This document shows positions 5,814 through 34,583 of a stretch of 37,237 nt of DNA, one piece after another (positions within the stretch are counted from its first letter, which is position 1; each line of letters starts with the position of its first letter). A model generated the notes under the pieces. It saw only the letters and a list, made by a program, of their open reading frames with translations, ran no database searches and had not been told where the DNA came from. Source of the DNA: a virus. The stretch lies in the IMG/VR virus record IMGVR_UViG_3300017719_005758, positions 1 through 37,237 of that record; one strand, written 5' to 3'. Both the position numbers and the translations under genes were made by a program.

Positions 5814-5831
5814 TAAGTTTTATTAAAAAAG

Positions 5832-5863
5832 CGTGTCCTAGCGCATTTTATTTCGTATATTAA
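5832..5863 (+). promoter_or_regulatory. Weak promoter candidate before the 105-residue gene
   Basis: A TTTCGTATATTAA box (TATATT at 5856-5861) matches the phage promoter box, including the preceding TTCG. The sequence 20 bases upstream is CGTG rather than TTTG, so the -33 element is poor. It lies 22 bases before the ATG at 5884 and would serve the unknown gene, groES and groEL. Confidence 0.35.
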
Positions 5864-5883
5864 CGTCTAAATAAATAAGTTAT

Positions 5884-11871: not shown

Positions 11872-12072
11872 ATGAGTTCAACAAAAAACCAAACACTAAC
11901 TAGTGTTAAAGTCCAAACCCCTTTATTTGAGGAATTTAAAATTGAATGTGTAAAGCGTAAATTTTCATTTCAAAAACTTGCTGATCGTGCTTTGTTTTTG
12001 TATCTTACAGATGAAGATTTTCGTAAAAAAATTACAAATCAAATTAACCTCCAAATAAAAAAGAATGGATAG
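11872..12072 (+). CDS. Possible ribbon-helix-helix regulator
   Basis: A 66-residue protein. A short strand (LTSVKVQTPLFEEFKI) is followed by two helices (ECVKRKFSFQKLADRALFLYL), the outline of a MetJ/Arc ribbon-helix-helix DNA-binding protein; similar short proteins occur in T4-like marine phages. It precedes the glycan cluster and overlaps the first glycosyltransferase by eight bases, so it may regulate that cluster. There is no direct evidence of DNA binding. Confidence 0.5.
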   Translation: MSSTKNQTLTSVKVQTPLFEEFKIECVKRKFSFQKLADRALFLYLTDEDFRKKITNQINLQIKKNG

Positions 12073-13513
12073 AAAATTTAGTTATATTCCCAAAGATAAA
12101 CGTAAAAAAATACTTTTAATTTGTGATGATATCAGAGTACATTCAGGTGTTGCTACTGTTGCTAAAGAAATTGTAGTACATACTGCAAATCATTTTAATT
12201 GGTGTCAAATAGCAGGTGCTATTAGACATCCTGAAAAAGGAAAACAACTAGATCTATCAGATGAAACTAATAAAGTAGCAAAAATTGAAGATTCTTATGT
12301 AAAATTATTCCCTGTAGATGGTTATGGTAATGAACAGATTTTAAGAGAAATTTTAAAATTTGAAAAACCAGATGCCGTAATGTTGTTTACAGATCCAAGA
12401 TATTTTGAGTTTGTTTTTAGAATGGAGGCTGAAATTAGAAAAATTTGTCCTATTATGTATCTTAATATTTGGGATGATTTACCTGCTCCTATGTATAACA
12501 GTGCTTACTATGAAGCTTGTGATTTATTAATGGGAATTTCAAAACAAACTGTAAATATTAATAAGTTAGTTTTAAAAGGAAAAGAAAAAAATAGACTATT
12601 TAAATATTTACCTCATGGTAAAAATGAAAATATCTATTACCCTTTAACACAAGAAGAAAAATCATCAAAAGATTTTATTAACTTTAAAAAAAGTATATTT
12701 AAAAATAAAAACCCTAAATTTGTTGGTTTCTTTAACTCTAGGAATATTAGGAGAAAACAAATCCCTGATACTTTATTAGCTTTTAGAGAATTTTTATATT
12801 CATTACCTAAAGAAGAAGCTAAAGAATGTTTTCTAATATTACATACAGAAGCAGTAACTGATCATGGTACAGATCTATATAAAGTAAGAGAATATTTATT
12901 TGGAGAAGATTTTGAAGATCAAATTATATTTTCCCACCAAAAATATGATGATAGAATATTAAATTGGTTATATAATATAGCTGATGTACAACTATTAATT
13001 ACATCAAATGAAGGATGGGGATTAACAATTACTGAGGCTATTTTAGCAGGTACTCCTATTATAGCTAATACTACAGGTGGGATGCAAGATCAAATGAGAT
13101 TTGTAGATAATGAAGGTAAATGGTTTGAACCGGATGAGAATGTGCCTTCTAATCATAGGGGTACATATAAAGAACATGGTGAATGGGCATTTCCAGTTTA
13201 TCCAACTTCAAATTCAATACAAGGTTCTCCTCCTACTCCTTACATTTATGATGATAGATGTTCATGGGAAGATGTTAGTAAAAGATTAAAAGAAGTATAT
13301 CTTATGAATAAAGAGGAACTTCAATCTAGAGGGTTAAAAGGTAGAGAATGGGCTATAAGTAATGAAGCTGGTTTTACATCAAAACACCAGGCTGAAAGAT
13401 TTGTAGAATATGTAAATGAACTATTTGATACTTGGGAACCAAGAGAAAAATATGAAATAGTAAATGCAAATGAATATAAAGGAAAATTTTTAAACCATAA
13501 AATAATTTATTAA
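12065..13513 (+). CDS. Glycosyltransferase, GT4-like (GT-B fold)
   Basis: A 482-residue GT-B glycosyltransferase. The C-terminal domain carries the retaining E-x7-E motif (E316 and E324 in NEGWGLTITEAILAG) with a TTGGMQD loop beyond it, the standard donor-binding site for a nucleotide-activated sugar. The N-terminal acceptor domain starts with a strand and a glycine turn (ILLICDDIRVHSGVATV). It is cytoplasmic, with no membrane segment. It is the first of the sugar-transfer enzymes and overlaps the next gene by one base. Donor and acceptor are unknown. Confidence 0.85.
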   Translation: MDRKFSYIPKDKRKKILLICDDIRVHSGVATVAKEIVVHTANHFNWCQIAGAIRHPEKGKQLDLSDETNKVAKIEDSYVKLFPVDGYGNEQILREILKFEKPDAVMLFTDPRYFEFVFRMEAEIRKICPIMYLNIWDDLPAPMYNSAYYEACDLLMGISKQTVNINKLVLKGKEKNRLFKYLPHGKNENIYYPLTQEEKSSKDFINFKKSIFKNKNPKFVGFFNSRNIRRKQIPDTLLAFREFLYSLPKEEAKECFLILHTEAVTDHGTDLYKVREYLFGEDFEDQIIFSHQKYDDRILNWLYNIADVQLLITSNEGWGLTITEAILAGTPIIANTTGGMQDQMRFVDNEGKWFEPDENVPSNHRGTYKEHGEWAFPVYPTSNSIQGSPPTPYIYDDRCSWEDVSKRLKEVYLMNKEELQSRGLKGREWAISNEAGFTSKHQAERFVEYVNELFDTWEPREKYEIVNANEYKGKFLNHKIIY

Positions 13514-14787
13514 TGAGTAAAACAAGTTTTGTAATAAGTTGCCCATTTGACACTTATAGTGGATATGGAGCTAGATCAAGAGATATAGTTAAAGCTATAA
13601 TACAATCTGGAAAATATGATGTAATGTTATTACCCCAGAGATGGGGATCAACTTCTTGGGGTTTTTGTGATGCACACCCTGAATGGAAGTTTTTAAATGA
13701 TTTAAAAATTAATAGATTAACTAAACGTCCTGATATTTGGATGCAAATTACAATACCTAATGAATTTCAACCAGTTGGGAGATATAATATTGGATGTACC
13801 GCAGGTATTGAAGCTGATAAATGCAAACCAGAATGGATTGCTGGTTTAAATAAAATGGATAGGAATTTTGTGTCTTCTAAATTCACAAAAAAGATGTTTG
13901 AAGAACAAATATTTGATCAAAAAGATAAAAAAACAAACCAAGTTATAGGAAGTATTAAATTAGAAAAACCTATAGATGTTGTATTTGAAGGTGTAGATTT
14001 AGATACATATAAACCTCTAAAAAGTACTGAATTAACTACTTTTGATTTTAGTAAAATTAAAGAATCATTTTGTTATTTATTTGTAGGACATTGGATGAAA
14101 GCAGATTTTGGTCATGATAGAAAAAATGTTAGTTTATTAGTAAAAGCATTTTATGAAACATTTAAAAATAAAAAGAAAAAACCTGCTTTAATATTAAAAT
14201 CATCTACTGGAGTAGCAGGATATATGAGTAGAGATGAAATTTTAGATAAAATTAACAAAATTAAAAAATCAGTAGATTCTAAAATTTTACCTAATATTTA
14301 TGTTTTAAATGGAGAATTTAGTGATTCTGAAATGAATGAATTATATAACCATCCTAAAGTAAAAGCAATGGTTAGTTTAACTAAAGGAGAAGGGTTTGGT
14401 AGACCATTACTAGAATTTACTACAACAGGTAAACCTGTAATAGCTTCAGGTTGGTCTGGTCATACAGATTTTTTACATAATCAATTTTCAGTTTTAATAC
14501 CTGGAGAATTAGAACCTGTACACGCCTCTGCTGCTAATAATTGGTTAATTACTGAAGCTAAATGGTTTAAACCTGATACTAGATATGTTGGAGGTTCTTT
14601 TAAAAATGTATTTGAGAAATATAAAGATTTTAGAACAAAAAGTAAAAGACAAAAATATTATACACAACAAAATTATAGTTGGAAACATATGGAAAAATTA
14701 GTTAATGAAATTTTAGATAATAATCTTCCAGAGTTTCCTAAAGAAATGGAGCTAAAACTCCCAGAATTAAATATACCAAAATTATGA
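13513..14787 (+). CDS. Glycosyltransferase, GT4-like (GT-B fold)
   Basis: A 424-residue second GT-B enzyme. The E-x7-E motif is E293/E301 in KGEGFGRPLLEF, followed by GKPVIASGWSGHTDFL. The N-terminus has a GYGARSRDI glycine-rich loop after the first strand. It differs enough from the preceding transferase that it is probably not a recent duplicate. It overlaps the upstream stop by one base and the downstream gene by four, so the three genes are translationally linked. Confidence 0.83.
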   Translation: MSKTSFVISCPFDTYSGYGARSRDIVKAIIQSGKYDVMLLPQRWGSTSWGFCDAHPEWKFLNDLKINRLTKRPDIWMQITIPNEFQPVGRYNIGCTAGIEADKCKPEWIAGLNKMDRNFVSSKFTKKMFEEQIFDQKDKKTNQVIGSIKLEKPIDVVFEGVDLDTYKPLKSTELTTFDFSKIKESFCYLFVGHWMKADFGHDRKNVSLLVKAFYETFKNKKKKPALILKSSTGVAGYMSRDEILDKINKIKKSVDSKILPNIYVLNGEFSDSEMNELYNHPKVKAMVSLTKGEGFGRPLLEFTTTGKPVIASGWSGHTDFLHNQFSVLIPGELEPVHASAANNWLITEAKWFKPDTRYVGGSFKNVFEKYKDFRTKSKRQKYYTQQNYSWKHMEKLVNEILDNNLPEFPKEMELKLPELNIPKL

Positions 14788-15227
14788 AACATGACTCACT
14801 AAAAATATGCACCAGATGTGGTTCAGATGCTTGTTATACCCAAGAAGTAACTAAAGATATTAATATAGAAATGTGTTATGGATGTGGTTTTCAAAGTAAC
14901 AGTATAATTAAAAAAGGAAATGAATTCTTTAATCAACAATTTGAAAATCTTCCAGAATTATATAAAGAATTAATGGATGAAGAAGAAGAAACAGGTAAAA
15001 TATGGATGCCCACTATTATTAACTTAAAAGATAAGGGTATGGTTTTTGCTGATGGAACTGGAAGAAATAATTGGAGATGGGCTGCAGTCAAAGCAGTAGA
15101 AATACCTAAGGAAGAACAAGAAAAATTTAAAGGAGAAAAACATAAAGCTGATATGTCTACTATAAAACATTTTGTAGAACGTGAATTTATAGAAGCACTT
15201 TCATATATTGGCGTATTACCAGAATAA
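14784..15227 (+). CDS. Zinc-ribbon protein of unknown function
   Basis: A 147-residue protein with two CxxC pairs, CTRCGS near residue 9 and CYGCGF near residue 31, that can hold a zinc ion. The rest is a mixed domain with a conserved-looking WMPTIINLKDKGMVFADG strand and W-R-W residues (NNWRWAAVKAVEIP). Similar small zinc-ribbon proteins occur in T4-like marine phages, but I know no function. Lying among glycosyltransferases, it may still be a separate phage function. Confidence 0.6.
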   Translation: MKHDSLKICTRCGSDACYTQEVTKDINIEMCYGCGFQSNSIIKKGNEFFNQQFENLPELYKELMDEEEETGKIWMPTIINLKDKGMVFADGTGRNNWRWAAVKAVEIPKEEQEKFKGEKHKADMSTIKHFVEREFIEALSYIGVLPE

Positions 15228-16082
15228 ATGAAAATATTAGTTACAGGTGGAGTTGGATTTGTAGGAACAGCTCTAATTAAAAAATTGTTAACCGAGGGAC
15301 ATAATGTTCACTCATTAGATAATTATGAAATTGGTGTTATTGAAAATGAAATAGCTGGTTGTAATTATCATATTGGGGATATAGAAAATATAAGTTTAAT
15401 GGATAAAGATTTTGATCTAATATTTCATTTAGCTGCTCTATCTAGAATACAACCTTCATTTAATAATCCAAATGAAACCTACAGAGTTAATACAATTGGA
15501 ACACAAAGGGTATGTGAATTTGCTAGATTAACGGGAGCTAAAGTTGTATATGCTGGTTCCTCTTCTAGATGGCATGATCCATATCAATCACCTTATGCTG
15601 CGTGTAAACACATGGGAGAAGAAGCATGTAAAATGTATAAAAAAACCTATGGTATGAATATTGAAATAGTTAGGTTTTATAATGTTTATGGTCCTGGTGA
15701 AATAGTAGATGGAGATTGGGCTGCGGTTATAGGAAAATGGAGACGTCAAGTTAGAGATGGAGAACCAATAACCATTGTAGGTAATGGTGAACAAAGAAGA
15801 GATTTTACCTATATAGATGACATTATAGATGGACTATGGAAAATTGGAATGAAGGAATTAACACATGAAGATGCCTGGGAATTAGGAACGGGTATGAATT
15901 ATTCTATTAATGATGTTTATTTAATGTTTAAGGAAAGATTTGGAGTTGATTTTATTAACTTACCAGACCAATCAGGCAATTATAGAGCTACTTTAAGAGA
16001 AAATGATGATAGTTTAGATAAATTAAATTGGAAACCTTCAGATAAATTAAGAGATTATATCTTAAGTTTAAACAAAAATTAA
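15228..16082 (+). CDS. NAD-dependent sugar epimerase/dehydratase
   Basis: A 284-residue extended SDR enzyme acting on nucleotide sugars. The Rossmann motif is TGGVGFVG (6-13), the NAD-binding LAALSR comes next, and the catalytic pair is Y123-x3-K127 (SPYAACK) with an upstream Ser cluster (AGSSSRW). The length and the VRFYNVYGPGE segment fit UDP-glucose 4-epimerase-like or dehydratase-like members. The substrate cannot be told from sequence. It starts immediately after the preceding stop. Confidence 0.85.
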   Translation: MKILVTGGVGFVGTALIKKLLTEGHNVHSLDNYEIGVIENEIAGCNYHIGDIENISLMDKDFDLIFHLAALSRIQPSFNNPNETYRVNTIGTQRVCEFARLTGAKVVYAGSSSRWHDPYQSPYAACKHMGEEACKMYKKTYGMNIEIVRFYNVYGPGEIVDGDWAAVIGKWRRQVRDGEPITIVGNGEQRRDFTYIDDIIDGLWKIGMKELTHEDAWELGTGMNYSINDVYLMFKERFGVDFINLPDQSGNYRATLRENDDSLDKLNWKPSDKLRDYILSLNKN

Positions 16083-16084
16083 AT

Positions 16085-16714
16085 ATGAAAATAAGTTATG
16101 CAATAACCGTATGTGATGAGTTTCTTGAAATACAAAAACTTCTCTCACTATTATTAAATAATAAAAGACAACAGGATGAAATTGTAGTATTAGTTGATTT
16201 AAGTAAAAATGAACCTACATCTGAACTCTTAAGTTATCTTCATGAACTAAGTTCTGAAGATTGTATTAAGTTAGTTGAAGACAATTTTAAAGGACATTTT
16301 GCTAATTGGAAGAATTTATTAACTAATCATTGTTCTGGAGATTTTATATTTCAAATAGATGCTGATGAAACCCCCCATGAAGTATTATTAGGTTATCTTC
16401 CTGAAATATTAGGAAATAATCCTAATAATGAAGTATATTTAGTTCCTAGAGTTAATACTGTAGAAGGATTAACAGATGAACATATTAAAAAATGGGGATG
16501 GAGAGTTAACGATGCCGGTTGGGTAAATTGGCCTGATTATCAATGGCGTATTTGGAAAAATAAACCAGAAATTAAATGGGTAAATAAAGTACATGAAAAA
16601 CTAGAAGGTTTTAAAACATATGCTACCATTCCTTTAACTGAACAATTATCTTTATACCACCCTAAAAATATTAATCGTCAAGAAAAACAAAACGCTTATT
16701 ACGATACATTATGA
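16085..16714 (+). CDS. Glycosyltransferase family 2 (GT-A fold)
   Basis: A 209-residue GT-A transferase. The N-terminus SYAITVCDEFLEIQKLL is the first nucleotide-binding strand, and DADE at 92-95 (FQIDADETP) is the metal-binding DxD motif. The C-terminal WRIWKNKPEIKWVNKVHEKLEG segment is typical of GT2 enzymes related to WaaE/KdtX-type lipopolysaccharide transferases. It is short for the family but appears complete. It overlaps the next gene by four bases. Confidence 0.8.
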   Translation: MKISYAITVCDEFLEIQKLLSLLLNNKRQQDEIVVLVDLSKNEPTSELLSYLHELSSEDCIKLVEDNFKGHFANWKNLLTNHCSGDFIFQIDADETPHEVLLGYLPEILGNNPNNEVYLVPRVNTVEGLTDEHIKKWGWRVNDAGWVNWPDYQWRIWKNKPEIKWVNKVHEKLEGFKTYATIPLTEQLSLYHPKNINRQEKQNAYYDTL

Positions 16715-17586
16715 AAATATTATATGTAACAAATCATAATGATATTTTTGATTTTACTAAAGGGGTTATTAATGATTACCAAAATGATTTAGTATTTCAT
16801 GGTTTAAGAGAATTATTTGGAGATGATGTTGTAGATAGTACACAAATAATATCTTTATATAAAGAATTTGAAGGTAAGATTTTGCCTCAAAACTTATGGG
16901 GACGTATGACTCTTTTTTGGTTAATAGGTGATAATAATATAGATAGAACTAATATTGAAGATAAAATTAAAGATAAATATTATGATTTAATTATTTATGG
17001 GTCAATTAAACGTTGTAGAAATTATTATAATCTAGTTTCTAAAGTATACCCACCTGATAGAGTTATACTAATTGATGGAAATGATGAAGAAACTTTAGAT
17101 CCTTTACATACTAAACATCTATATTTTAAAAGAGAATTTTTACCTGGCTATGAACATAAAAATATCCATCCTATAACTTTTGGTATTCCTTCTTCTAAAA
17201 TAGCCAAATTGCCTATAACAAAAACACAACAATATGCAACTAACATCCCAGGTAAACCTGAAACTTATATTTTTAAAGATGAAAAAAGTTACTATGAAGA
17301 TTACCAAAAATCATATTATGGAGTAACTACTAAAAAAGCAGGATGGGATTGTATGAGACACTATGAGATATTAGGTAATTATTGTATGCCTTATTTTCCA
17401 GAATTAGAAAAATGTCCTAAGAATACTTTATCTTTACTACCAAAAGAATTACTTATAGAAGGAAGAGAGTTAACGAAAAATTTTAATATTGAAAGATATT
17501 ATAATATTTTAGATGAACTATTTGATTATACTAAACAAAATCTTACTACAAAAAATGTAGCTGAGTATATATTATCTAAAATATGA
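16711..17586 (+). CDS. Probable glycosyltransferase (CgeB-like GT-B)
   Basis: A 291-residue protein. The N-terminal strand MKILYVTNHND and the YDLIIYGSIKR segment look like a GT-B acceptor half. The C-terminal stretch GWDCMRHYEILGNYCMPYFP (211-230) resembles the donor loop of CgeB/Glyco_trans_1_2 proteins, where a conserved RHYE helix precedes the P/F residues. No E-x7-E is present. It overlaps its neighbours by four bases each side in a run of sugar-transfer genes. Moderate confidence in the class, none in the substrate. Confidence 0.55.
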   Translation: MKILYVTNHNDIFDFTKGVINDYQNDLVFHGLRELFGDDVVDSTQIISLYKEFEGKILPQNLWGRMTLFWLIGDNNIDRTNIEDKIKDKYYDLIIYGSIKRCRNYYNLVSKVYPPDRVILIDGNDEETLDPLHTKHLYFKREFLPGYEHKNIHPITFGIPSSKIAKLPITKTQQYATNIPGKPETYIFKDEKSYYEDYQKSYYGVTTKKAGWDCMRHYEILGNYCMPYFPELEKCPKNTLSLLPKELLIEGRELTKNFNIERYYNILDELFDYTKQNLTTKNVAEYILSKI

Positions 17587-18374
17587 TATTAAAGGAAATT
17601 ATAAATAAATCATATTATGGTACCTGTAATTATATTGGTAATCTTAATGATCTTAAAAGATTAGAACAACTTATTTTATATAATTTTAATGTACTAAAAG
17701 AATATAAAGGTATTATAGTAGCCACTAACTATGGAAATCTAGATTTATCCTCCCAAAATTCAGAAATGTGGTTAAAGTATTTCCCTAATTGTCATATAAT
17801 TGATTTAAATGAAAATAGAGGACATAATTTTGGGACTGCTGATTTAGACAATGTCTTATTTGATTATTGTAAACAAAATAATATAGAATGGTTATGTAAA
17901 TCATCAGGAGATACTATTTTAGAAATAGAAGTACTTAATAATAGAATTGAAGAAAGTGATTTTTATTACTTAAATGGAATTGGTTATGGTGGAATGGTTA
18001 AATATAATTTTAATTTAGATGTAATAATTAAAGAAGATTTTTATCCACAAACTAATTTTTATTTTATAAATGTATCAAAAACAGATTATTTAAATGATAA
18101 AGATTACATTAATAAAACATATGACACTATTAAAAATAATTCTGAATATAATGGAAAAATTTGGGAATATTTTAGTGGGTGGAGTTGTGAAGATTTCTTA
18201 AAAAATTGTGTTATTAGAAATAATCTTTCCAAATTTCATTTGGTTACTCCAAAAAATTATCGTATATTACTTCAATATATAAAAGATTCTCAAATACATG
18301 ACTGTAGTCATAAACAAATAATGATTGAAAATATTTGTCATTTACATGAGGGTAATAATATAATAAAACTTTAA
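17583..18374 (+). CDS. Possible GT-A-like glycosyltransferase
   Basis: A 263-residue protein. The order of elements is GT-A-like: a strand IIVATNYG, then LNENRGHNFGTADL (76-89), which resembles the NxGxxxGxN loop before the DxD motif, then WLCKSSGDT with SGD at 108-110 where a DxD would be. The motif is degenerate, so it may be an unusual or inactive transferase. It is co-directional and overlapping with the glycan genes. A promoter for the next gene lies inside its 3' part. Confidence 0.45.
   Translation: MILKEIINKSYYGTCNYIGNLNDLKRLEQLILYNFNVLKEYKGIIVATNYGNLDLSSQNSEMWLKYFPNCHIIDLNENRGHNFGTADLDNVLFDYCKQNNIEWLCKSSGDTILEIEVLNNRIEESDFYYLNGIGYGGMVKYNFNLDVIIKEDFYPQTNFYFINVSKTDYLNDKDYINKTYDTIKNNSEYNGKIWEYFSGWSCEDFLKNCVIRNNLSKFHLVTPKNYRILLQYIKDSQIHDCSHKQIMIENICHLHEGNNIIKL
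18239..18270 (+). promoter_or_regulatory. Internal promoter for the second half of the glycan cluster
   Basis: TTTG at 18239-18242, exactly 20 bases, then TATATTAC at 18263-18270 preceded by ATCG. It is inside the 3' end of the 17583 gene and about 105 bases upstream of the dehydratase gene at 18376, giving a ~100-base leader. Both boxes and spacing match the clamp and polymerase C-part promoters. Confidence 0.5.
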
Positions 18375-18375
18375 T

Positions 18376-19527
18376 ATGAAACAAACAAAAAAAATTTGGT
18401 ATGCTCCTTATAAGCATGAAGCTTATGGTCAAGAAGAAATTGATGCCGTAGTTGAATCACTAAAATCAGGTTGGTTAGGAGGACAAGGTCCTAAATCAGT
18501 TGAATTTGAAGAAAAAATTGCTAAAACATTTGGTAAAAAATATGGTGTATTTGTTAACTCGGGTTCATCAGCATGTTTATTAGCTATTGCTGCTTTAGAC
18601 TTACCTAAAGGAACTAAAATTATTACACCTGCTTGTACATTTGCTACCACATTAGCTCCTATTATCCAATTAGGATATGTACCTGTATTTGTAGATGTAG
18701 ATTTAACTACATATTGTGCAAATATAGATCAAGTTATAGCTAAAGTAACAGATGATACATCAGCAATTATGTTGCCAAATTTAATTGGTAATAAACCAGA
18801 TTGGCCTAGACTTAAAAAGGCATTAGTTGATATGGGTAGAGAAGATATTTATTTAATTGAAGATTCAGCTGATACTTTAACTCAAACACCTGAAACAGAT
18901 GTTGCCACTACTAGTTTTTACGCTTCACACGTTATTACAGCTGGTGGAGTAGGTGGAATGGTAATGTATAATGATAAAAAACATGTTACTAAATGTTTAC
19001 AATATAGAGATTGGGGTAGATTAGGTGATGATTCTGAGATTATGGATGATAGATTTAATCATATAGTAGATGGGATTCCTTATGATCATAAATTTTTATA
19101 TTCAGTATTAGGTTATCATATGAAAGCTAGTGAAATGAATGCCGCATTTGGTATTGTTCAATTAGAAAGATTTGGTGTTAATAGTAAAATTAGAAGAGAT
19201 AATGTTGAACGTTATTTAGAAAATTTAAAAGGGGTTGGGGATCTAATTTTACCTGATGATAGTATTAAACCTAATTGGTTAGCAATACCCTTACAAACAG
19301 AAAAAAGATTTGAATTATTAAACTTTTTAGAGGATAATAACATCCAAACTAGAGTAACATTTGCCGGTAATGTAACTAGACACCCAGTTTATCGTGAGTA
19401 TTTAGAAGACTTTGAAAATTCAGATACTATTATGAAAAATGGATTTTTACTAGGAGCTCATCACGGGATGACTGTTGAAGATGTAGATATTGTATGTGAT
19501 AAAGTTAAAGAATTTTTTAATAAATAG
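18376..19527 (+). CDS. PLP-dependent sugar 3-dehydratase-like enzyme (DegT/ColD type)
   Basis: A 383-residue DegT/DnrJ/EryC1/StrS-fold enzyme. The PLP pocket is visible: NSGSSA (61-66), VPVFVDVDL, and IEDSAD with D163. The expected Schiff-base lysine is missing: the segment SFYASHVIT has His185 where aminotransferases have Lys (SFHAIKNIT in ArnB). The same His is found in ColD (GDP-4-keto-6-deoxymannose 3-dehydratase) and in the E1 3-dehydrase of CDP-sugars, which remove the 3-hydroxyl instead of adding an amino group. The length is ColD-like; no extra cysteine cluster for a Fe-S centre is obvious. Predicted product: a 3-deoxy-4-keto sugar. The His is seen; the substrate is inference. Confidence 0.8.
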   Translation: MKQTKKIWYAPYKHEAYGQEEIDAVVESLKSGWLGGQGPKSVEFEEKIAKTFGKKYGVFVNSGSSACLLAIAALDLPKGTKIITPACTFATTLAPIIQLGYVPVFVDVDLTTYCANIDQVIAKVTDDTSAIMLPNLIGNKPDWPRLKKALVDMGREDIYLIEDSADTLTQTPETDVATTSFYASHVITAGGVGGMVMYNDKKHVTKCLQYRDWGRLGDDSEIMDDRFNHIVDGIPYDHKFLYSVLGYHMKASEMNAAFGIVQLERFGVNSKIRRDNVERYLENLKGVGDLILPDDSIKPNWLAIPLQTEKRFELLNFLEDNNIQTRVTFAGNVTRHPVYREYLEDFENSDTIMKNGFLLGAHHGMTVEDVDIVCDKVKEFFNK

Positions 19528-20211
19528 ATGAAAGTAGCTATATTAGGGGATGGATTACTAGGAACAGAATTATCAAAACAAACTAATTGGGATATTATTA
19601 GTAGAAATTCTCATGGTCATGATTTTAATGATATATCATCTTGGTATCAATATTTAGTTAAATATGATGTAATTATTAATTGTATAGCTAACACTGATTC
19701 ATACTCCAAAGATAAAACCCAACATTGGAACATAAATTATAAATCAGTAGTAAGACTATGTAATTGGTGTAATGAATATGATAAAAAATTAGTACATATA
19801 TCTACTGAATTTGTTTATGCTAATAATGAAAAACCACCTACAGAAGAAGATATTCCATCCCCTGATAATACTTGGTATGCTTATACTAAATTATTAGCAG
19901 ATGAATATATTAAACTTACTAGTTTTAATTATCTAATTTGTAGAGAATTACATAAACCAAATCCATTCCTATATGATGAGGTTTGGAAAGTCCAAACATC
20001 AGGAGATACAGTTGATAAAATAGCTAATTTAATAATACAATTAATAAATAAAAATGCTAGTGGAGTTTTTAATGTTGGTACTGGGGATAAATGGTTAAAA
20101 GAACTTGCACCTAAAACAAGTAAAGTAATACCACCTCCATTTAAAACCCCATTTGATACTAGAATGGACTTAACTAAACTTAATAACTTTTTAAATGAGA
20201 ATAATATATAG
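19528..20211 (+). CDS. RmlD-like NAD(P)H-dependent sugar reductase
   Basis: A 227-residue short SDR protein resembling dTDP-4-dehydrorhamnose reductase (RmlD). The N-terminal GDGLLGTEL (7-15) replaces the usual GxxGxxG, INCIANTDSY matches the RmlD NCAAYTxVD region, STEFVYA follows, and the catalytic Y117-x3-K121 is in TWYAYTKLLADE. It is about 60 residues shorter than RmlD. It follows the dehydratase directly, so it may reduce that enzyme's 4-keto product. It overlaps the next gene by 17 bases. Confidence 0.72.
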   Translation: MKVAILGDGLLGTELSKQTNWDIISRNSHGHDFNDISSWYQYLVKYDVIINCIANTDSYSKDKTQHWNINYKSVVRLCNWCNEYDKKLVHISTEFVYANNEKPPTEEDIPSPDNTWYAYTKLLADEYIKLTSFNYLICRELHKPNPFLYDEVWKVQTSGDTVDKIANLIIQLINKNASGVFNVGTGDKWLKELAPKTSKVIPPPFKTPFDTRMDLTKLNNFLNENNI

Positions 20212-20890
20212 AATATCAGATGCTGGTTATAATAAAGTCAAACCAGAATATATTAATAATGAAAATTGTTTAGCTAATGCTACTAAGGTATTTGATAATT
20301 CAACCTGGAGTGTTATAGCAGATAATGTATCCCCAGATACTAATAATATGATTCAAAAATATGTAACACGTAATTGTATTTTATATGCTGAAAAAGGTAA
20401 TGGGGCTGCAACATTTAATTTAGCATTGGATGAAGCCTTAACTTATGATGATGAAGAAATAATATATTTTATAGAGAATGATTATTTGCATAAACCTGAA
20501 TCTGAAAAAATAATAGAAGAAGGATTTAAATTAGGAGCATCATTTGTATCATTATATGACCATCCAGATAAATACATTACACCTGAAAATGGTGGTAATC
20601 CTTATTGTCAAGGTGGAGCTGAAGACACAAGAGTATATTTAACTGATTCTTGCCATTGGAAAATAACTAATAGTACTACTATGACTTTTGCTGCTAAAGT
20701 AAAAACATTAAAAAAAGTAGAACCTACACTTAGAGCTTATACTACTGGAACCTACCCTCAGGATTTTAAAATGTTTTTGGATTTAAGAAAACAAGGACAT
20801 TTGTTAGTAACACCTTTACCTGGATATTCTACTCATGGAGAAACTGCTTGGTTAACTCCTTTAACTAAATGGGAACAATATATAAAATGA
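20195..20890 (+). CDS. Probable GT-A glycosyltransferase
   Basis: A 231-residue protein with a GT-A-like core: GNGAATFNLALDEAL (68-82), then an acidic motif YFIENDYLH with END at 94-96 in the DxD position. The rest is rich in Thr/Tyr and ends after LTPLTKWEQYIK. It starts at ATG 20195 inside the upstream gene and ends with an ATGA overlap with the next transferase. Family assignment is by motif pattern only. Confidence 0.55.
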   Translation: MRIIYRISDAGYNKVKPEYINNENCLANATKVFDNSTWSVIADNVSPDTNNMIQKYVTRNCILYAEKGNGAATFNLALDEALTYDDEEIIYFIENDYLHKPESEKIIEEGFKLGASFVSLYDHPDKYITPENGGNPYCQGGAEDTRVYLTDSCHWKITNSTTMTFAAKVKTLKKVEPTLRAYTTGTYPQDFKMFLDLRKQGHLLVTPLPGYSTHGETAWLTPLTKWEQYIK

Positions 20891-21651
20891 TAACAGTAGT
20901 AATTACAACATATAAAGAACCTAAGGCATTAGATATTTGTTTACAATCCGCTATTAAAGGACAAGTCCACGATAATCAGATTATTGTAGTAGTAGATGGT
21001 TATTATGACTTAAATAAAGAAGTACTAGATAAATATAAGGATAAAATAAATACCCTTAATTTAGAAAATAATTTAGGAATGATTAAGGCCATGAATTTAG
21101 GTCATTATAATGCCCATCATGATTTGGTATTTCATGTTCAAGATGATAATGTATTTCCAAATAAATGGGATGAAAAATTATTAGAACATTATAAAGAAGG
21201 ATCAGTTTTAACCCCAAACCAAATAGAACCTAATCCAAGTATGTTTCCTCAATTTAGTATAAAAGATTTAGGAACGGATTTAAATAACTTTAATTTATCT
21301 TCATTTTGGGATTACAATGAATTAATATCTAAAAATGAATTTGATGAATGTGGTTCAACTTTCCCTTTCTTAATATCTAAATCTGATTATCTAAAAATAG
21401 GTGGATTTGATGAATCATACCCAGGACCTTGGGTTGTTGATTGGGAATTTTTTATGAAATGTCAAATGAATGGATTAAAAATGATTAGAACTTATAACTG
21501 CCATTTTTACCATTTTGTATCATTAGGGACAAAATCACAAGAACAATTAGAGGAAGCAAAACAAAAAGAAAATTTATGTCATAAATTTGCCTTATACAAA
21601 TGGGGTTCGTATATTAAACATAACCCTAATAATAACATAAAATATATTTAA
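20887..21651 (+). CDS. Glycosyltransferase family 2
   Basis: A 254-residue GT2 enzyme. The start is taken at ATG 20887, which overlaps the previous stop as ATGA and places the first strand (ITVVITTYKEP) at the N-terminus; an in-frame ATG at 20869 would add only six residues. The nucleotide-binding loop NNLGMIKAMNLG precedes QDDN (85-88), the DxD-equivalent metal site, and WVVDWEFFMK supplies the later acidic pair. Its stop overlaps the cytidylyltransferase start by one base. Confidence 0.82.
   Translation: MITVVITTYKEPKALDICLQSAIKGQVHDNQIIVVVDGYYDLNKEVLDKYKDKINTLNLENNLGMIKAMNLGHYNAHHDLVFHVQDDNVFPNKWDEKLLEHYKEGSVLTPNQIEPNPSMFPQFSIKDLGTDLNNFNLSSFWDYNELISKNEFDECGSTFPFLISKSDYLKIGGFDESYPGPWVVDWEFFMKCQMNGLKMIRTYNCHFYHFVSLGTKSQEQLEEAKQKENLCHKFALYKWGSYIKHNPNNNIKYI
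21586..21617 (+). promoter_or_regulatory. Internal promoter for the nucleotide-sugar genes
   Basis: TTTG at 21586-21589, exactly 20 bases, then TATATTAA at 21610-21617, preceded by GGTTCG. It lies 33 bases upstream of the cytidylyltransferase ATG (21651), inside the end of the GT2 gene, and matches the TTCG-TATATT form of the phage promoters. Confidence 0.5.
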
Positions 21652-22091
21652 TGGAAAATATAATAGGATTTACAGCAGGTAACTTTGATCTAATCCATCC
21701 AGGATATATCTATACATTTGAAGAAGCAAAACGTCATTGTGATTATTTCATGGTGTTTTTACAACGTGATCCATCTGAAACTAGGTTTACTAAATACAAA
21801 CCTGTTATTCCTTTATATGAAAGGTATAAAACTTTAATGGCTATCGAATATGTAGATGAAGTAGTTACATATCAAACAGAAGAAGAATTAATAAGTCTAA
21901 TTGAATTTTATAAACCCGATATTAGAATTTTAGGAGACGATTACATTGGTAAAAGATTTACAGGGGATTATTTACCTCAAAAAGTAATTTATACTACCAG
22001 ATCACATGGTTGGTCAACTACTAAGTTGAAAAATATGATTACTAAACAAACAGTTTTACAAAATCCTGATGTTTTAAATGAAAAAAATTAG
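21651..22091 (+). CDS. Cytidylyltransferase-like nucleotidyltransferase (TagD type)
   Basis: A 146-residue nucleotidyltransferase of the TagD/GCT fold, which activates a phosphorylated sugar or polyol with CTP. The N-terminal FTAGNFDLIHPGYIYTFEEA contains the family HxGH motif as HPGY (16-19), with Tyr replacing the second His. The C-terminal RSHGWSTTKLK stands in for the ISSTxxR signature. The length is normal for TagD (about 130). It may supply a CDP-activated precursor for the glycan. It overlaps the RmlC-like gene by 14 bases. Confidence 0.75.
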   Translation: MENIIGFTAGNFDLIHPGYIYTFEEAKRHCDYFMVFLQRDPSETRFTKYKPVIPLYERYKTLMAIEYVDEVVTYQTEEELISLIEFYKPDIRILGDDYIGKRFTGDYLPQKVIYTTRSHGWSTTKLKNMITKQTVLQNPDVLNEKN

Positions 22092-22515
22092 TGACCATAG
22101 AGGATTATTTTTTTTAGATAATAATGCTAGATATGATCAAGTATTTATTGCAACTAATGAAGCTAGGCATACTTTTAGAGGTATGCATTTTCAAACTAAT
22201 CCTTATCAAATTAAAAATTTAACAATTATCCAAGGGGAAGTTTTAGATTTTTTATATAATATTAAAACAGGTGAAGTAAAAGAATATAATTTAAAAGTAG
22301 GAGATACACTTACTATTAGTGAAGAGTATGCTCATGGTTATTTAACATTAGTACCTGACACTATAGTATATTATGGAGTAAAAGGAAAATTTAATCCTGA
22401 TACATACAAAAGTATTGTATGGAATACAATTCCTAGTATAAAAAATACAATAGAAACAATTATAGGTGACTTAAATAGAATTACAATTTCAGAAAAAGAT
22501 AAATTAGGAAAATGA
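22078..22515 (+). CDS. rmlC: RmlC-like dTDP-sugar 3,5-epimerase
   Basis: A 145-residue cupin of the RmlC family. Recognisable are HTFRGMHFQ with the catalytic His37, IQGEVLDFLYNI with the barrel acid D57, and EYAHGYLTL matching the FAHGF segment. Canonical RmlC is about 180 residues, so the C-terminal part is short. It acts on a 4-keto-6-deoxy sugar nucleotide, the product of the RmlB-like enzyme encoded next. It overlaps that gene by four bases. Confidence 0.82.
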   Translation: MKKISDHRGLFFLDNNARYDQVFIATNEARHTFRGMHFQTNPYQIKNLTIIQGEVLDFLYNIKTGEVKEYNLKVGDTLTISEEYAHGYLTLVPDTIVYYGVKGKFNPDTYKSIVWNTIPSIKNTIETIIGDLNRITISEKDKLGK

Positions 22516-23399
22516 GAATAATAGTAACAGGAGGAGCAGGATTTATAGGATCCCATTTTATAAATTTTGTAGGTAAACAAAACCCAACAACTGAGATTGT
22601 ATTGGTAGATAAATTAACTTATGCTTCTAATTTGAACAATTTAGATGTTAAAGTTAAATTTATTAAAAAAGATATATGTGATATAACCCCAGAGGATTTA
22701 GGAATATATGATTATTTAATCAATTTTGCAGCTGAAAGTCATGTTGATAATTCAATTAAAAATGGAAAACCATTTGTAAAAACAAATGTTGAAGGTACTT
22801 TTAATTTATTAGAAGTAGCTAGACAAAATCCTAATCTAAAAAAATTCGTTCAAATATCTACTGATGAAGTTTATGGTGATATGGATGATTATGGTCCTGG
22901 TGTTTTAGCTGATGAAAAATTTAGTTTAATTGGATCATCATATTATTCATCAACTAAGGCGTCTGCTGATTTATTAGTTCAAGCAGCAGGTAGAACATAT
23001 GGATTACCCTATTTAATAACTCGTACGTGTAATAATTACGGAAAAAACCAACATCAAGAAAAATTATTGCCTACAATAATAAATTGTGTTAAAAATAATC
23101 TTAAAATTCCTATCTATGGAGATGGTCAAAATATAAGAGAATGGATACATGCTGATGATAATTCAATGATAATATTCAATTTATTAAATTCAGATAAAAC
23201 AGGAGTACATAACATAGGTTCAGGTGAAAGATATACTAATTTACAAATAATTGAAACTATAGAAAAAATATTAGGTTATCAATTAGATTTAAAGTTTGTA
23301 GAAGATAGAAAAGGCCATGATAGAGCTTATGGTTTATTAACTAATTATACACCTGTATTACAAAATAACTTGACAAAATATTTAACAGAACAATTATGA
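22512..23399 (+). CDS. rmlB: RmlB-like nucleotide-sugar 4,6-dehydratase
   Basis: A 295-residue extended SDR. The NAD motif is TGGAGFIG (6-13), the catalytic acids are D118/E119 in STDEVYG, and Y145-x3-K149 is in YYSSTKAS; AAESHVDNSI and RTCNNYGKNQHQEKLLP are typical of dTDP-glucose 4,6-dehydratase. Slightly shorter than RmlB (about 350). It gives the 4-keto-6-deoxy intermediate used by the RmlC-like, RmlD-like and ColD-like enzymes of the cluster. No RmlA (thymidylyltransferase) is present in the window, so activated hexose would come from the host. Confidence 0.88.
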   Translation: MRIIVTGGAGFIGSHFINFVGKQNPTTEIVLVDKLTYASNLNNLDVKVKFIKKDICDITPEDLGIYDYLINFAAESHVDNSIKNGKPFVKTNVEGTFNLLEVARQNPNLKKFVQISTDEVYGDMDDYGPGVLADEKFSLIGSSYYSSTKASADLLVQAAGRTYGLPYLITRTCNNYGKNQHQEKLLPTIINCVKNNLKIPIYGDGQNIREWIHADDNSMIIFNLLNSDKTGVHNIGSGERYTNLQIIETIEKILGYQLDLKFVEDRKGHDRAYGLLTNYTPVLQNNLTKYLTEQL

Positions 23400-24226
23400 A
23401 AATAGGAATTATAGGACAAGGATTTGTAGGTAATGCTATATACCAAAAGTTTAAAAATTATTATAATGTAATAACTTATGATTTAAAACCAAATTTATGT
23501 AATTCTACATTTGAAGAAGTAGCTAAACAATTAGTTATATTTGTTTGTCTTCCTACTCCAATGAATATGGATGGAAGTTGTAATATTGATTTAATTGAAA
23601 AAACTCTTTTAAAAATATCTCAATCTCCATCTCCAAATTTATTTAGAACAATAGTAATTAAATCAACAATCCCCCCAGGTACAACTGATAAATTAAATGC
23701 TAAATATGATAATCTTCATATTATGTTTAATCCTGAATTTTTAACTGAAGCTAATGCTATAGAAGACTTTAATAATCAAAATAGAATAATTTTAGGAGGT
23801 CATAAAGATGTTACATCCTACCTTAAAACTATATACATTAAAGTATTTCCACAAGCACGTATAATTAAAACTGATTCAACTCATGCAGAAATGGTAAAGT
23901 ATCTAATAAATACATTTCTTTCAACCAAAGTATCTTTTGCAAATGAGATGTACGAAATAAGTAAATCATTAGGTATTGATTATGATAAGGTTATTGAGTA
24001 TGCAACATTAGATGATAGATTAGGAAAATCACATTGGAATGTACCAGGACCAGATGGGGATTTTGGATTTGGTGGACATTGTTTTCCAAAAGACCTCCAG
24101 GCATTGATATCATTAGCACACGATTTAAATGTATCCCCAAGAATATTAACAGCAGTTGATTGTAAAAACAATGATGTTAGAAAAAACAAAGATTGGAAAC
24201 AAATGAGAGGGAGAGCTGTAATATAG
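23396..24226 (+). CDS. UDP-glucose/GDP-mannose dehydrogenase-like protein, short form
   Basis: A 276-residue member of the NAD-dependent nucleotide-sugar 6-dehydrogenase family. It has the N-terminal Rossmann motif GQGFVG (7-12), STIPPGTT, NPEFLTEANAIEDF (E115), K168 in EMVKYLINTFLS, and the catalytic cysteine C229 in GFGGHCFPKDLQAL. The family is usually 390-450 residues; the C-terminal nucleotide-binding domain is missing, and the protein ends about 45 residues after the cysteine. It may be a truncated enzyme, or use a different substrate. It is the last gene of the glycan cluster. Confidence 0.8.
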   Translation: MKIGIIGQGFVGNAIYQKFKNYYNVITYDLKPNLCNSTFEEVAKQLVIFVCLPTPMNMDGSCNIDLIEKTLLKISQSPSPNLFRTIVIKSTIPPGTTDKLNAKYDNLHIMFNPEFLTEANAIEDFNNQNRIILGGHKDVTSYLKTIYIKVFPQARIIKTDSTHAEMVKYLINTFLSTKVSFANEMYEISKSLGIDYDKVIEYATLDDRLGKSHWNVPGPDGDFGFGGHCFPKDLQALISLAHDLNVSPRILTAVDCKNNDVRKNKDWKQMRGRAVI

Positions 24227-24455: not shown

Positions 24456-24707
24456 ATGAAAATGATTCCTTGTATTAAATGTAAGGCAGATATGCCTGAA
24501 TTAAGGTTAACTCAATATGGTTATAAAGTATGTGTTAATTGTTCTAGTGTAAGCACTAAACGTGGCATCCCAGTAACAAGGGGTTCAGGTGATCATACTT
24601 GGACTGAAACCGTAATAATGGAAGAAGATCAATATCAGTCTTTTGTAAACTCAACTTCTAAAGAAAGAGGTAGCAGTGGTGATACAGTAACCTTTAAATT
24701 AAATTAA
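24456..24707 (+). CDS. Small zinc-ribbon protein
   Basis: An 83-residue protein with CIKCKADMP and KVCVNCSS, two CxxC pairs about 18 residues apart, a typical zinc knuckle. The remainder is polar (GSGDHTWTETVIMEEDQYQSF) and unassigned. It overlaps the HNH-like gene by one base. It could be a transcription-associated small protein, but nothing in the sequence fixes its role. Confidence 0.6.
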   Translation: MKMIPCIKCKADMPELRLTQYGYKVCVNCSSVSTKRGIPVTRGSGDHTWTETVIMEEDQYQSFVNSTSKERGSSGDTVTFKLN

Positions 24708-25324
24708 TGCCTAAGGCAAAACCTTTATCTAAAGAACAAATAGTAGCGGCTCAAGCGAAAACAAAATCTAATATGGCTGCTGCTCGTTATCTTCATGTGT
24801 CATATCAACACTATAAGAAGTGGGCTAAGTTATATAAATTATTTGATGGACATAAAAATCAAAGTGGTAAAGGTATACCTAAGTTTTTAAAGGGGCCTAA
24901 AAAAATGCCTCATATGTTAGAAATAATTGAGGGTAGGATAGCTGCATCTTCATTTGATCCAAATAAACTTAAATATGCTCTAATAGAACAGGGATATTTA
25001 TCAGAGGAATGTTCTATATGTTCATTTAAAGAAAGAAGGGTATTAGATTACAAGATTCCTTTATTACTTCATTTCAAAGATAATAATAGTAATAATTATA
25101 GTTTAGATAATGTACAGTTATTATGTTATAATCATTATTTTCTAACTGTAGGAGATGTTTTTAATGCTAAAGATGTAAAACAAATTGAATCAAAACAAGA
25201 ACATTTTGGTACAAGTGAAAAAGTAGAATGGGAAGTTGATGATTATCATTTACAACGTTTAAAAGAATTAGGATTAGGAGATGATGATGAAGATGATATT
25301 AATCAATATATTTCAAGAATATGA
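24707..25324 (+). CDS. HNH endonuclease-like protein
   Basis: A 205-residue protein. The N-terminal ~55 residues look like a helix-turn-helix (SKEQIVAAQAKTKSNMAAARYLHVSYQHYKKW, shown here only in part by key residues A23-A26 and Y34). The C-terminal part has zinc ligands C102/C105, then LLLHFKDNNSNNYSLDNVQLL with H122, N130 and N135, and C140/H143 in CYNHYF, an HNH-like arrangement. The first His-Asn pairing is slightly non-canonical, so catalytic activity is uncertain. It may nick DNA at specific sites. It ends with an ATGA overlap with the next small gene. Confidence 0.6.
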   Translation: MPKAKPLSKEQIVAAQAKTKSNMAAARYLHVSYQHYKKWAKLYKLFDGHKNQSGKGIPKFLKGPKKMPHMLEIIEGRIAASSFDPNKLKYALIEQGYLSEECSICSFKERRVLDYKIPLLLHFKDNNSNNYSLDNVQLLCYNHYFLTVGDVFNAKDVKQIESKQEHFGTSEKVEWEVDDYHLQRLKELGLGDDDEDDINQYISRI

Positions 25325-32029: not shown

Positions 32030-32257
32030 ATGAAAGTAGAAAGACAAGTTTTACATAATTGCTTGGATAAGGCAAAAAGTTTTTATAAATTAGGGGAACG
32101 AGATAAGGCAAGAGACTATTGTGATATGGGAATTGGTTATGTTGCTGCTAAAAAAGAAGATGGTGCTGATGGGGAAGACTTAATTGAAGGAGTTAGAATC
32201 AATTTATGGTTAGAACGTTTTTGGATGTTTTTAGAAAATAAAAATTTAATGTTATAA
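32030..32257 (+). CDS. Hypothetical helical protein
   Basis: A 75-residue helical protein with a TPR-like pair: CLDKAKSFYKLGERDKARDY followed by an acidic turn and EGVRINLWLERFWMFLEN. A single TPR-like unit would be a protein-protein contact. Function unknown. Confidence 0.5.
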   Translation: MKVERQVLHNCLDKAKSFYKLGERDKARDYCDMGIGYVAAKKEDGADGEDLIEGVRINLWLERFWMFLENKNLML

Positions 32258-32258
32258 T

Positions 32259-32447
32259 ATGGAAAACGAAGCAAATAAATGGTGGGAAATTTCAGTAGCA
32301 TGGAAATGGCCACATGAAGGATTTACAGTTGGTTATGATTTAATTGAACCAATAGAAGAAGATGAAGCTAAATATTTTAGTTTTAATTTATATTTAGGAT
32401 TATTATCTGTACTTATTAATTGGGGAAAACATAGTTGGAATGAGTAG
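32259..32447 (+). CDS. Small hypothetical protein
   Basis: A 62-residue protein, Trp-rich (six Trp, e.g. KWWEISVAWKWPHEGF), with a hydrophobic segment YFSFNLYLGLLSVLI in the C-terminal half. It overlaps the next gene by eight bases. It could sit at a membrane surface. Unknown. Confidence 0.5.
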   Translation: MENEANKWWEISVAWKWPHEGFTVGYDLIEPIEEDEAKYFSFNLYLGLLSVLINWGKHSWNE

Positions 32448-32592
32448 AATAGAAGAATTAGTATATAGTGCTCATGAATATGGTAAACGAGCTCAATTGT
32501 TTGATGAGGTTTCTAAGATAAAATTAGAATCTCCAACAATGCAATTAGAAGAAGTTTATGATAAAGCATATCAAAATGTAATGAATACTTAA
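32440..32592 (+). CDS. Small hypothetical helical protein
   Basis: A 50-residue gene from ATG 32440, predicted as two charged helices (RIEELVYSAHEYGKRAQLFD and MQLEEVYDKAYQNVMN). It sits directly before fabH (two bases) and is probably translated with it. Unknown function. Confidence 0.45.
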   Translation: MSRIEELVYSAHEYGKRAQLFDEVSKIKLESPTMQLEEVYDKAYQNVMNT

Positions 32593-32594
32593 AT

Positions 32595-33614
32595 ATGAGT
32601 AATTCTAAAATTATAGGATTAGGACATTATGTCCCAAATAATATTATTACTAACAACGATTTATCTGAAATGTTAAATACATCAGATAAATGGATTCAAA
32701 GTCGTACTGGAATTAAAGAACGTAGATGGGTTACTAAAGAAAGTGGTGATACAGCTGCTACAATGGGAACTAAAGCAGCAAAAATAGCTATTGAAAATGC
32801 TGGTCTAAAAAAAGATGATATTGATTTCATTATATTTGCTACTATGACACCTGATTATTACTTTCCTGGTTGTGGTGTTCAAGTCCAGAATGAATTAGGT
32901 ATTAAAAATATAGGTGCTTTAGATGTTAGAAACCAATGTTCAGGTTTTATTTATGCCTTATCTGTTGCTGATAAGTTTATTAAAACAGGTACTTATAAAA
33001 ATATATTAGTAATAGGAGCAGAATTACATTCAGGTGGATTAGATAAAACACCAAGAGGTAGAGATGTAAGTGTAATATTTGGAGATGGAGCGGGTGCTTT
33101 AGTATTATCTAGAACAGACAAAAACAAAGGTATATTATCTACTCATTTACACTCAGATGGAAAATACGCTGAAGAATTAGCTGTAGTAGGACCTTCACCT
33201 AGACATGGTGTTGGAAAAGATAATCATTGGATCAAAAGTGTTCAAGATAAACCTGAGGAAACATTTTATTTTCCTTATATGAATGGGAAATCAGTATTTA
33301 AACATGCCGTTTTTAGATTTAGTGATGTAATTACTGAAGGATTATCTGTAAATCAATTAAACCCATCTAATGTTGATCTATTTATTCCACATCAGGCAAA
33401 CTTAAGAATATCTGAATTTGTGCAAAAGCAATTTGACTTCAGAGATGACCAAGTATTTAACAACATACAAAAATATGGTAATACAACTGCAGCATCAATT
33501 CCTATAGCATTAAGTGAAGCATTTAAACAGGGTAAAATTAAAGATAATAATATAATAGTATTAGCTTCATTTGGTAGTGGTTACACTTGGGGTAGTATAA
33601 TAATAAAGTGGTAA
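32595..33614 (+). CDS. fabH: Beta-ketoacyl-ACP synthase III (FabH)
   Basis: A complete 339-residue KAS III, the enzyme that condenses an acyl-CoA with malonyl-ACP to start fatty-acid synthesis. The catalytic triad is intact: C115 in NQCSGFIYAL, H266 in IPHQANLRI and N296 in YGNTTAAS. Other signatures are RTGIKERRW (37-45) for CoA binding and FGDGAGALVLSRT. Length is normal (E. coli FabH 317). Bacteroidota FabH-type proteins often prefer branched or unusual primers, so this could adjust host membrane lipids or make a special acyl chain. Its codons are as AT-rich as its neighbours, so it has been resident long enough to adapt. It overlaps the next membrane gene by one base. Confidence 0.95.
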   Translation: MSNSKIIGLGHYVPNNIITNNDLSEMLNTSDKWIQSRTGIKERRWVTKESGDTAATMGTKAAKIAIENAGLKKDDIDFIIFATMTPDYYFPGCGVQVQNELGIKNIGALDVRNQCSGFIYALSVADKFIKTGTYKNILVIGAELHSGGLDKTPRGRDVSVIFGDGAGALVLSRTDKNKGILSTHLHSDGKYAEELAVVGPSPRHGVGKDNHWIKSVQDKPEETFYFPYMNGKSVFKHAVFRFSDVITEGLSVNQLNPSNVDLFIPHQANLRISEFVQKQFDFRDDQVFNNIQKYGNTTAASIPIALSEAFKQGKIKDNNIIVLASFGSGYTWGSIIIKW

Positions 33615-33967
33615 TGAATATAGAAAAATTATTAATAGGTATATTTTGGTTTATTTTGGGTCATGTAGCAGTGTTTTTTCAATTAAACGGTCAATTTAAA
33701 TGGGAATGGTTTAAAAAAAATGAATTCATATTAGCATTAGCTGGTCTTATAATATCATATTTTTATATATGGGGTACAAAACATACCGTAGAAGGGTTTA
33801 ATGGTTTATTATGGCCTGCTAGATTTATAGGATTTAGTATAGGAATATCCGTTTATGCTTTGGGTGTTGGATATTTCTTTAAAGAGGGTATTACAAATAA
33901 AACATTTGTAAGTTTACTATTATGTGTTATATTAGTAGCAATTCAAGTATTATGGAAAACTAAATAA
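33614..33967 (+). CDS. Four-helix membrane protein after fabH
   Basis: A 117-residue protein with about four membrane helices: LLIGIFWFILGHVAVFFQL, LALAGLIISYFYIWG, FIGFSIGISVYALGVGYFF and VSLLLCVILVAIQVLW. Start taken at ATG 33614 in a TAATG overlap with fabH, in preference to an in-frame GTG two codons upstream. Polar loops are short. It could act on lipids or pore formation; no family was recognised. Confidence 0.65.
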   Translation: MNIEKLLIGIFWFILGHVAVFFQLNGQFKWEWFKKNEFILALAGLIISYFYIWGTKHTVEGFNGLLWPARFIGFSIGISVYALGVGYFFKEGITNKTFVSLLLCVILVAIQVLWKTK

Positions 33968-33968
33968 A

Positions 33969-34241
33969 ATGGCAGCAAGAAAAAAAATTACATTTAAACG
34001 ATGGCTACTCAGAAGATTAGTATATGTAAATAAACTCACCCCATATCAGAAATTTGCTTCACGAGTAGGTTATATGGGTAGTGGGTTTTTAATAGCAGCA
34101 CAATGGACAATTGAACCATATTTATACGTGATAGGGTTTTGTTTTGTTATAGTACAAACATCATCAAGAAAACAATGGAACTTAGTTGCATTAAATATAA
34201 ATGGATTAATAGCTTGGATTACACACCTCTTAAATACATAA
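33969..34241 (+). CDS. Small membrane protein
   Basis: A 90-residue protein. The first ~25 residues are basic (AARKKITFKRWLLRRLVY), followed by two hydrophobic segments (MGSGFLIAAQWTI and PYLYVIGFCFVIV) and a possible third (LNINGLIAWITHLL). It is the second small membrane protein after fabH and may act with it. Unknown. Confidence 0.5.
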   Translation: MAARKKITFKRWLLRRLVYVNKLTPYQKFASRVGYMGSGFLIAAQWTIEPYLYVIGFCFVIVQTSSRKQWNLVALNINGLIAWITHLLNT

Positions 34242-34243
34242 AA

Positions 34244-34381
34244 ATGGACCTACAAGAAAGAACAAACAAAATTAAAGAATTAAGTAGCATGATAGTGGAT
34301 CTAAAAAAGAATAGAACAGTAGATTCTAAAAAAACCATTCAAAAACTACAACAAGAAATAGATAAGCTAATATATGATTAA
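34244..34381 (+). CDS. Small coiled-coil protein
   Basis: A 45-residue charged helix (ERTNKIKELSSMIVDLKKNR ... KTIQKLQQEIDKLI) with heptad-like Leu/Ile spacing. The start is ATG 34244, two bases after the previous stop; a longer frame from 34139 overlaps the membrane gene and is rejected. It overlaps the next gene by eight bases. Confidence 0.5.
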   Translation: MDLQERTNKIKELSSMIVDLKKNRTVDSKKTIQKLQQEIDKLIYD

Positions 34382-34583
34382 TAGAGAATTAATAACTAAG
34401 GATAATAAAATGTATGAAGTAGTATCATCTGTTTCTTCACATATGTTTCTTAATAAAGATAAATCTCTAAACCAACAAGTATTAGGATTGTATGTTAATG
34501 AATATAAAGGAGATAGAGTGTTACAACGTGAAGATAAATTCTTAATATGTAAGCAAATAGAAGAAGCACAAATAATAGAATAA
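34374..34583 (+). CDS. Small hypothetical protein
   Basis: A 69-residue protein, alpha/beta in outline with a strand at KMYEVVSSVSSHMF and charged turns (EYKGDRVLQREDKFLICK). No known family. A promoter for the next small gene begins three bases after its stop. Confidence 0.5.
   Translation: MINRELITKDNKMYEVVSSVSSHMFLNKDKSLNQQVLGLYVNEYKGDRVLQREDKFLICKQIEEAQIIE

Follow-up and report, generated by a model that had tools for sequence, protein, structure and literature searches.

FabH sets the start of fatty-acid synthesis and the choice of primer, so a copy carried by a phage gives direct access to the ways in which phages may steer lipid metabolism. We asked what such a gene does in a virus and whether it works with the two small genes behind it, as a sequence-only reading of the DNA had suggested. 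The window (the whole stretch analysed) is a linear virus record of 37.2 kb from IMG/VR with 28.8% GC. Its proteins include a family-B DNA polymerase, a clamp-loader-like AAA protein, GroES, and Hsp20, recognised by Pfam, and GroEL, identified by sequence. The chaperone genes for Hsp20, GroES, and GroEL are grouped at 5397-8102, with 44% relatives of the GroEL in related contigs. The polymerase is apparently split: an ORF at 534-2285 carries the exonuclease and the first part of the palm, another at 3620-4555 begins at the YVDTDS motif, and three small genes, one encoding a DUF6165 protein, lie between the halves. A split gp43 occurs in some Aeromonas phages. By Pfam, a plus-strand sugar and glycosyltransferase cluster (12065..24226) encodes glycosyltransferases, epimerases, a DegT aminotransferase, and RmlC/RmlD-like, cytidylyltransferase-like, and UDP-glucose dehydrogenase-like proteins. 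The virus appears to be a large T4-like phage, and the origin of its FabH (see below) together with its kinship to other flavobacterial phages points to a marine Flavobacteriaceae host.

The gene itself (fabH; 32595..33614, plus strand) encodes a beta-ketoacyl-ACP synthase III (KAS III) of 339 aa and, as the ORF listing agrees, sits among very small ORFs. The protein matches NCBIfam TIGR00747 as a full-length KAS III (382.6 bits; cut-off 292.1) and also exceeds the cut-off of PRK09352 and the Pfam cut-offs for ACP_syn_III and ACP_syn_III_C. An intact Cys115-His266-Asn296 triad had been claimed, and active-site mapping placed all three residues (C115, H266, and N296) at exactly those positions. 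Phage residues W33, R37, T38, F90, C115, R154, and F162 correspond to W32, R36, T37, F87, C112, R151, and F157 of E. coli FabH, and M229, H266, N269, R271, N296, and F326 correspond to M207, H244, N247, R249, N274, and F304. No catalytic or CoA/ACP position is changed in this mapping; W33, R37, R154, and R271, which bind CoA or dock ACP, are kept (E. coli W32, R36, R151, and R249). Among the mapped positions, E. coli Phe87 shuts the tunnel for long acyl chains, and because Phe90 stands at this position in the phage enzyme, a short acyl primer would be favoured over long acyl-CoA. We then considered an AlphaFold2 model built from a 22-sequence alignment (the window and fetched-locus rows), which has a mean pLDDT of 86.9 and a pTM of 0.89. 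The model shows the thiolase fold of solved FabH structures, and its top PDB match is E. coli FabH (6x7r; TMt 0.96, E 8e-45). Only residues 200-217 and 222-224, where there are ~7 extra residues, fall below a pLDDT of 50. Sequence and model both suggest that the enzyme is probably active.

To place the protein among those of hosts, a comparison that the sequence-only reading had proposed, we turned to a phylogenetic tree. The best 80 cellular FabH loci are nearly all from Flavobacteriaceae (65-70% identity), and the phage protein falls inside a Flavobacteriaceae-dominated group (SH-aLRT 99; the branching order within the group is not fixed). This group is enclosed in a Bacteroidota paralogue clade (SH-aLRT 100), which the tree separates from the rpmF-linked housekeeping FabH. 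The genomes checked hold a second FabH at 36-40% identity, next to rpmF in the two loci inspected, as well as other, distant KAS III proteins. The orthologue of the phage gene is the stand-alone host paralogue, which has htpG nearby in 66 of 80 loci and a CoA-binding-protein-like gene close to it in 58 of 80. Its branch is long (0.53 versus a median of 0.088), which could reflect a changed substrate or relaxed constraint. Codon use is that of the phage: GC3 is 0.124 in fabH and 0.115 on average in the long genes of the phage (SD 0.017), versus 0.27 in bacterial homologues. The pN/pS ratio is 0.24-0.32, although with pS at 0.65-0.86, near saturation, it is only a rough indicator of constraint. 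Taken together, the clade position, the long branch, the phage-like codon use, and pN/pS identify fabH as an old flavobacterial acquisition that has adapted to the phage and is not contamination. Contamination, which the sequence-only reading had set out as a way for its claim to fail, and a chimera are both rejected on the phage-like codon use and the conserved synteny of the flanks.

How, then, is the gene embedded among its neighbours? All of them lie on the plus strand. Upstream are backbone gene G (32030..32257; 75 aa), found in 32 IMG/VR loci and in synteny with M1, backbone gene H (32259..32447; 62 aa), assigned by synteny, and gene I (32440..32592; 50 aa), which comparison of junctions with relatives defines as the left edge of the fabH insertion. 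Downstream are the two small genes M1 (33614..33967) and M2 (33969..34241), both backbone, and backbone gene K (34374..34583), where by synteny the variable region ends on the right. Some 30 related IMG/VR contigs repeat the order G, (H), (I), M1, M2, J, K with differing genes between. A tblastn search found fabH in none of the 127 phage loci fetched around its neighbour genes, and in the collections searched only one contig has it in the slot. The slot is empty, with gene I directly adjoining M1, in loci L100, L149, and L154. In the close relative L144, a gene with an MGS domain (methylglyoxal-synthase-like) stands exactly in the place of fabH, 2 nt after gene I. Since the slot is empty or otherwise filled in relatives, and M1 and M2 occur without fabH, we read fabH as cargo inserted at a hotspot that backbone genes I and M1 border. 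The claim that FabH and the two small proteins form a functional set does not hold, as M1 and M2 are found without FabH in all related loci, across dozens to hundreds of contigs. A hotspot with such conserved edges is useful for surveying the metabolic genes that flavophages exchange.

The cargo of relatives is varied and includes 2OG-Fe oxygenases, cupin-like proteins, sulfotransferases, radical SAM and flavodoxin-fold proteins, and a 4HBT thioesterase. MGS-domain genes occupy L138 10380-10754, L141 10377-10751, L144 10855-11229, and L145 13327-13707. Sugar genes are frequent in the slot, KdsA/KdsB-like ones included; in L145 (11991-13330) the cargo is a KdsB-like cytidylyltransferase with a KdsA-like protein of the DAHP/KDO8P-synthase type. 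Genes resembling 4HBT acyl-CoA thioesterases adjoin the M1 homologue in L143 (6385-6738) and lie near it, two genes upstream, in Immutovirus (L097, 11308-11736).

M1 starts at ATG 33614 rather than at GTG 33608, since the alignment of its relatives begins at 'MNIEKLL', and the start codon and the fabH stop overlap in the sequence TAATG. A translational link between the two genes had been claimed. The overlap is real, but it is no evidence of a special link, since such spacing is routine in the window genome (47 of 64 adjacent gene pairs are no more than 5 nt apart, and there are 30 overlaps) and M1 abuts other upstream genes in L149 and L154, relatives that lack FabH. Homologues of M1 were found in Immutovirus and at 16 IMG/VR loci, and we also examined the protein by alignment, modelling, Foldseek, and VIA. 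Neither M1 nor M2 has a Pfam match, and PHROGs returned nothing meaningful for either. The AlphaFold2 model of M1 has four long helices, as predicted, and compares with the small multidrug resistance (SMR) transporters Gdx-Clo at Z 11.7 and EmrE at 8.7-9.9, values to be set against the 13 that helical bundles often reach by chance; Foldseek matched SMR transporters with an E of only 0.16. The essential helix-1 Glu of SMR transporters was not found in the M1 alignment: the invariant residue in the core of helix 1 is His17, and its sole acidic residue, Glu5, lies at the start and is not conserved. By its model, M1 may at most be called SMR-like in topology. M2, described as a second membrane protein, is a small conserved phage protein with relatives in at least 263 IMG/VR stretches. 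None of its 19-residue windows reaches the hydropathy value of 1.6 that is customarily required; membrane association is plausible. Neither small protein occurs at any of the 80 host FabH loci, a search in which phage loci served as positive controls, and the refuting condition named in the sequence-only reading, the same trio in the host genome, therefore did not refute its claim. A search for M1 in 100 Flavobacteriaceae genomes also gave no match, but it had no positive control and is uninformative.

The rarity of FabH in phages, stated in the sequence-only reading, was borne out. The protein has no meaningful match among PHROG families, and a single-protein scan of IMG/VR found no close relatives, although near-identical records may have been missed. 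Most matches in phage databases look bacterial. We treated them as probably bacterial and left them out, since all but a few are unannotated contigs named as phages; the records inspected bear an UNVERIFIED mark, and the few annotated ones are from Helicobacter and Acinetobacter. Four further loci were discarded: in L088, rpmF precedes FabH, the mark of a host locus at the edge of a prophage; in L093, the gene that follows is, judged by eye, probably a host gene of the FabK type; and L095 and L096 are fragments. An IMG/VR profile scan did reveal a second phage FabH clade (SH-aLRT 100) in five large contigs: L089 (5076-6020), L090 (9989-10933), L091 (9079-10023), L092 (9989-10930), and L094 (9992-10933). 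All three of the members tested score above the TIGR00747 cut-off. These genes lie within sugar clusters, where most adjoin hexapeptide-acetyltransferase-like, DegT-like, and GDP-mannose-dehydratase-like genes and three also an SDR reductase. L092 additionally carries a head-maturation-protease-like gene, a thymidylate synthase, and a 48% relative of the window gene at 24707-25324. Flavobacterium psychrophilum has ketoacyl-ACP synthases in its O-antigen clusters, together with a reductase, an ACP, and an acyltransferase, all serving a dihydroxyhexanoyl group, and the synthases are proposed to build the acyl group of an amino sugar (PMC6519341). Given this precedent and the sugar-cluster setting, glycan acylation is the natural reading for the second clade, which seems likely to supply acyl groups for glycan decoration, and it is the main rival for the FabH of the window. 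A broader proposal, that large Bacteroidota phages acquired FabH on two or more occasions and retain acyl-thioester enzymes (FabH and 4HBT thioesterases) by the SMR-like M1 as a flexible acyl-supply module altering lipid or glycan acylation, strikes us as rather improbable.

Applied to the window, the glycan reading holds that FabH makes acetoacetyl- or hydroxyacyl-ACP for N-acylation of an amino sugar in a phage-modified surface glycan, drawing on the sugar cluster of the phage, with its DegT aminotransferase and dehydratases, and on FabG and ACP of the host. The independent second clade in its sugar clusters, the F. psychrophilum precedent (PMC6519341), and the frequency of sugar genes in the cargo slot of relatives all favour such a role. 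However, the FabH of the window belongs to the htpG-linked stand-alone clade and not to that of the sugar clusters, its gene lies 8 kb from the window's own sugar cluster, and the window proteins scanned included no recognisable ACP, acyltransferase, or N-acyltransferase. Acylation of a glycan by FabH is thus possible, but as an account of this gene we consider it unlikely.

We give still less credit to a fabH that is a neutral or degrading passenger, a host fragment, chimera, or contamination with no role in the phage. Its full-length ORF has kept all key residues after ~30% divergence, its codon use is wholly phage-like, pN/pS is about 0.25-0.3, and its neighbours to either side are conserved phage genes; against this stand a single occurrence in the collections searched and the long branch in the tree, and we regard such a passenger as very unlikely. 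The idea that fabH, M1, and M2 constitute a dedicated membrane-remodelling module for lysis, entry exclusion, or acylation appears very unlikely too. It draws on the tight TAATG spacing of fabH and M1 and on the acyl-thioester enzymes near M1 in three lineages (fabH in the window and 4HBT genes in L143 and Immutovirus), but tight spacing is found genome-wide, M1 and M2 are kept in loci that lack FabH, and many unrelated genes fill the slot in relatives. No evidence ties FabH to lysis or to entry exclusion, the roles that had been put forward.

The explanation that we favour, with moderate confidence, is that fabH reached a T4-like phage of marine Flavobacteriaceae by horizontal transfer and functions there as an auxiliary metabolic gene; we infer both its activity and its benefit. 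It has the attributes of an auxiliary gene, lying in a viral genome with viral genes on both flanks, having a cellular origin, and being optional among relatives. We suggest that a phage ancestor captured an accessory host FabH paralogue, which was inserted in the hotspot between I and M1. During infection, FabH would join a short acyl-CoA primer to malonyl-ACP by condensation, and the resulting 3-ketoacyl-ACP would feed the FabG/FabZ/FabI cycle of the host. The Pfam scan of window proteins, which took in some but not all of the small ORFs, recognised neither a further fatty-acid gene nor an acyl carrier protein, and for this reason the FabH product would have to enter the host pathway. Fatty-acid initiation might in this way be sustained or shifted, and with it the supply of membrane or LPS lipids during host shutdown. 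Of the earlier proposal that fatty-acid initiation is redirected, what survives is an intact phage FabH that could do so, without the three-gene set.

Compared with known systems, the phage protein shares with E. coli FabH (PDB 1hn9 and 6x7r) the fold, the catalytic triad, and the residues that contact CoA and ACP, but the two are only ~42% identical and the phage protein has a longer loop at residues 196-228. Its closest kin, the accessory FabH paralogue of Bacteroidota, is about 65-71% identical and shares its clade and active-site signature, including His145 at the position of E. coli Leu142, whereas the phage copy differs in its long branch, a loop longer by 7 residues near 201-208, and phage codon use. 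The second phage clade is likewise of the FabH family and carried by large phage contigs, but it is 33-36% identical, forms a separate clade, and is marked by PHQP(S/N)IN and YANIAG-type motifs and by its sugar-cluster setting. In rumen viral contigs, fabH and fabF are listed as viral auxiliary metabolic genes; these are fatty-acid condensing enzymes as here and, in the part of that paper that lists them, are known from metagenome annotation only (PMC5704599). Prophages of Rhodobacteraceae carry a fabG-acpP-fabF set, and the same study states that fabH was not found (PMC8224337); fatty-acid synthesis is phage-borne as in our case, but the genes are those of elongation and the carriers are prophages (PMC8224337). 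Phage FabH is an uncommon passenger gene, of a type already known.
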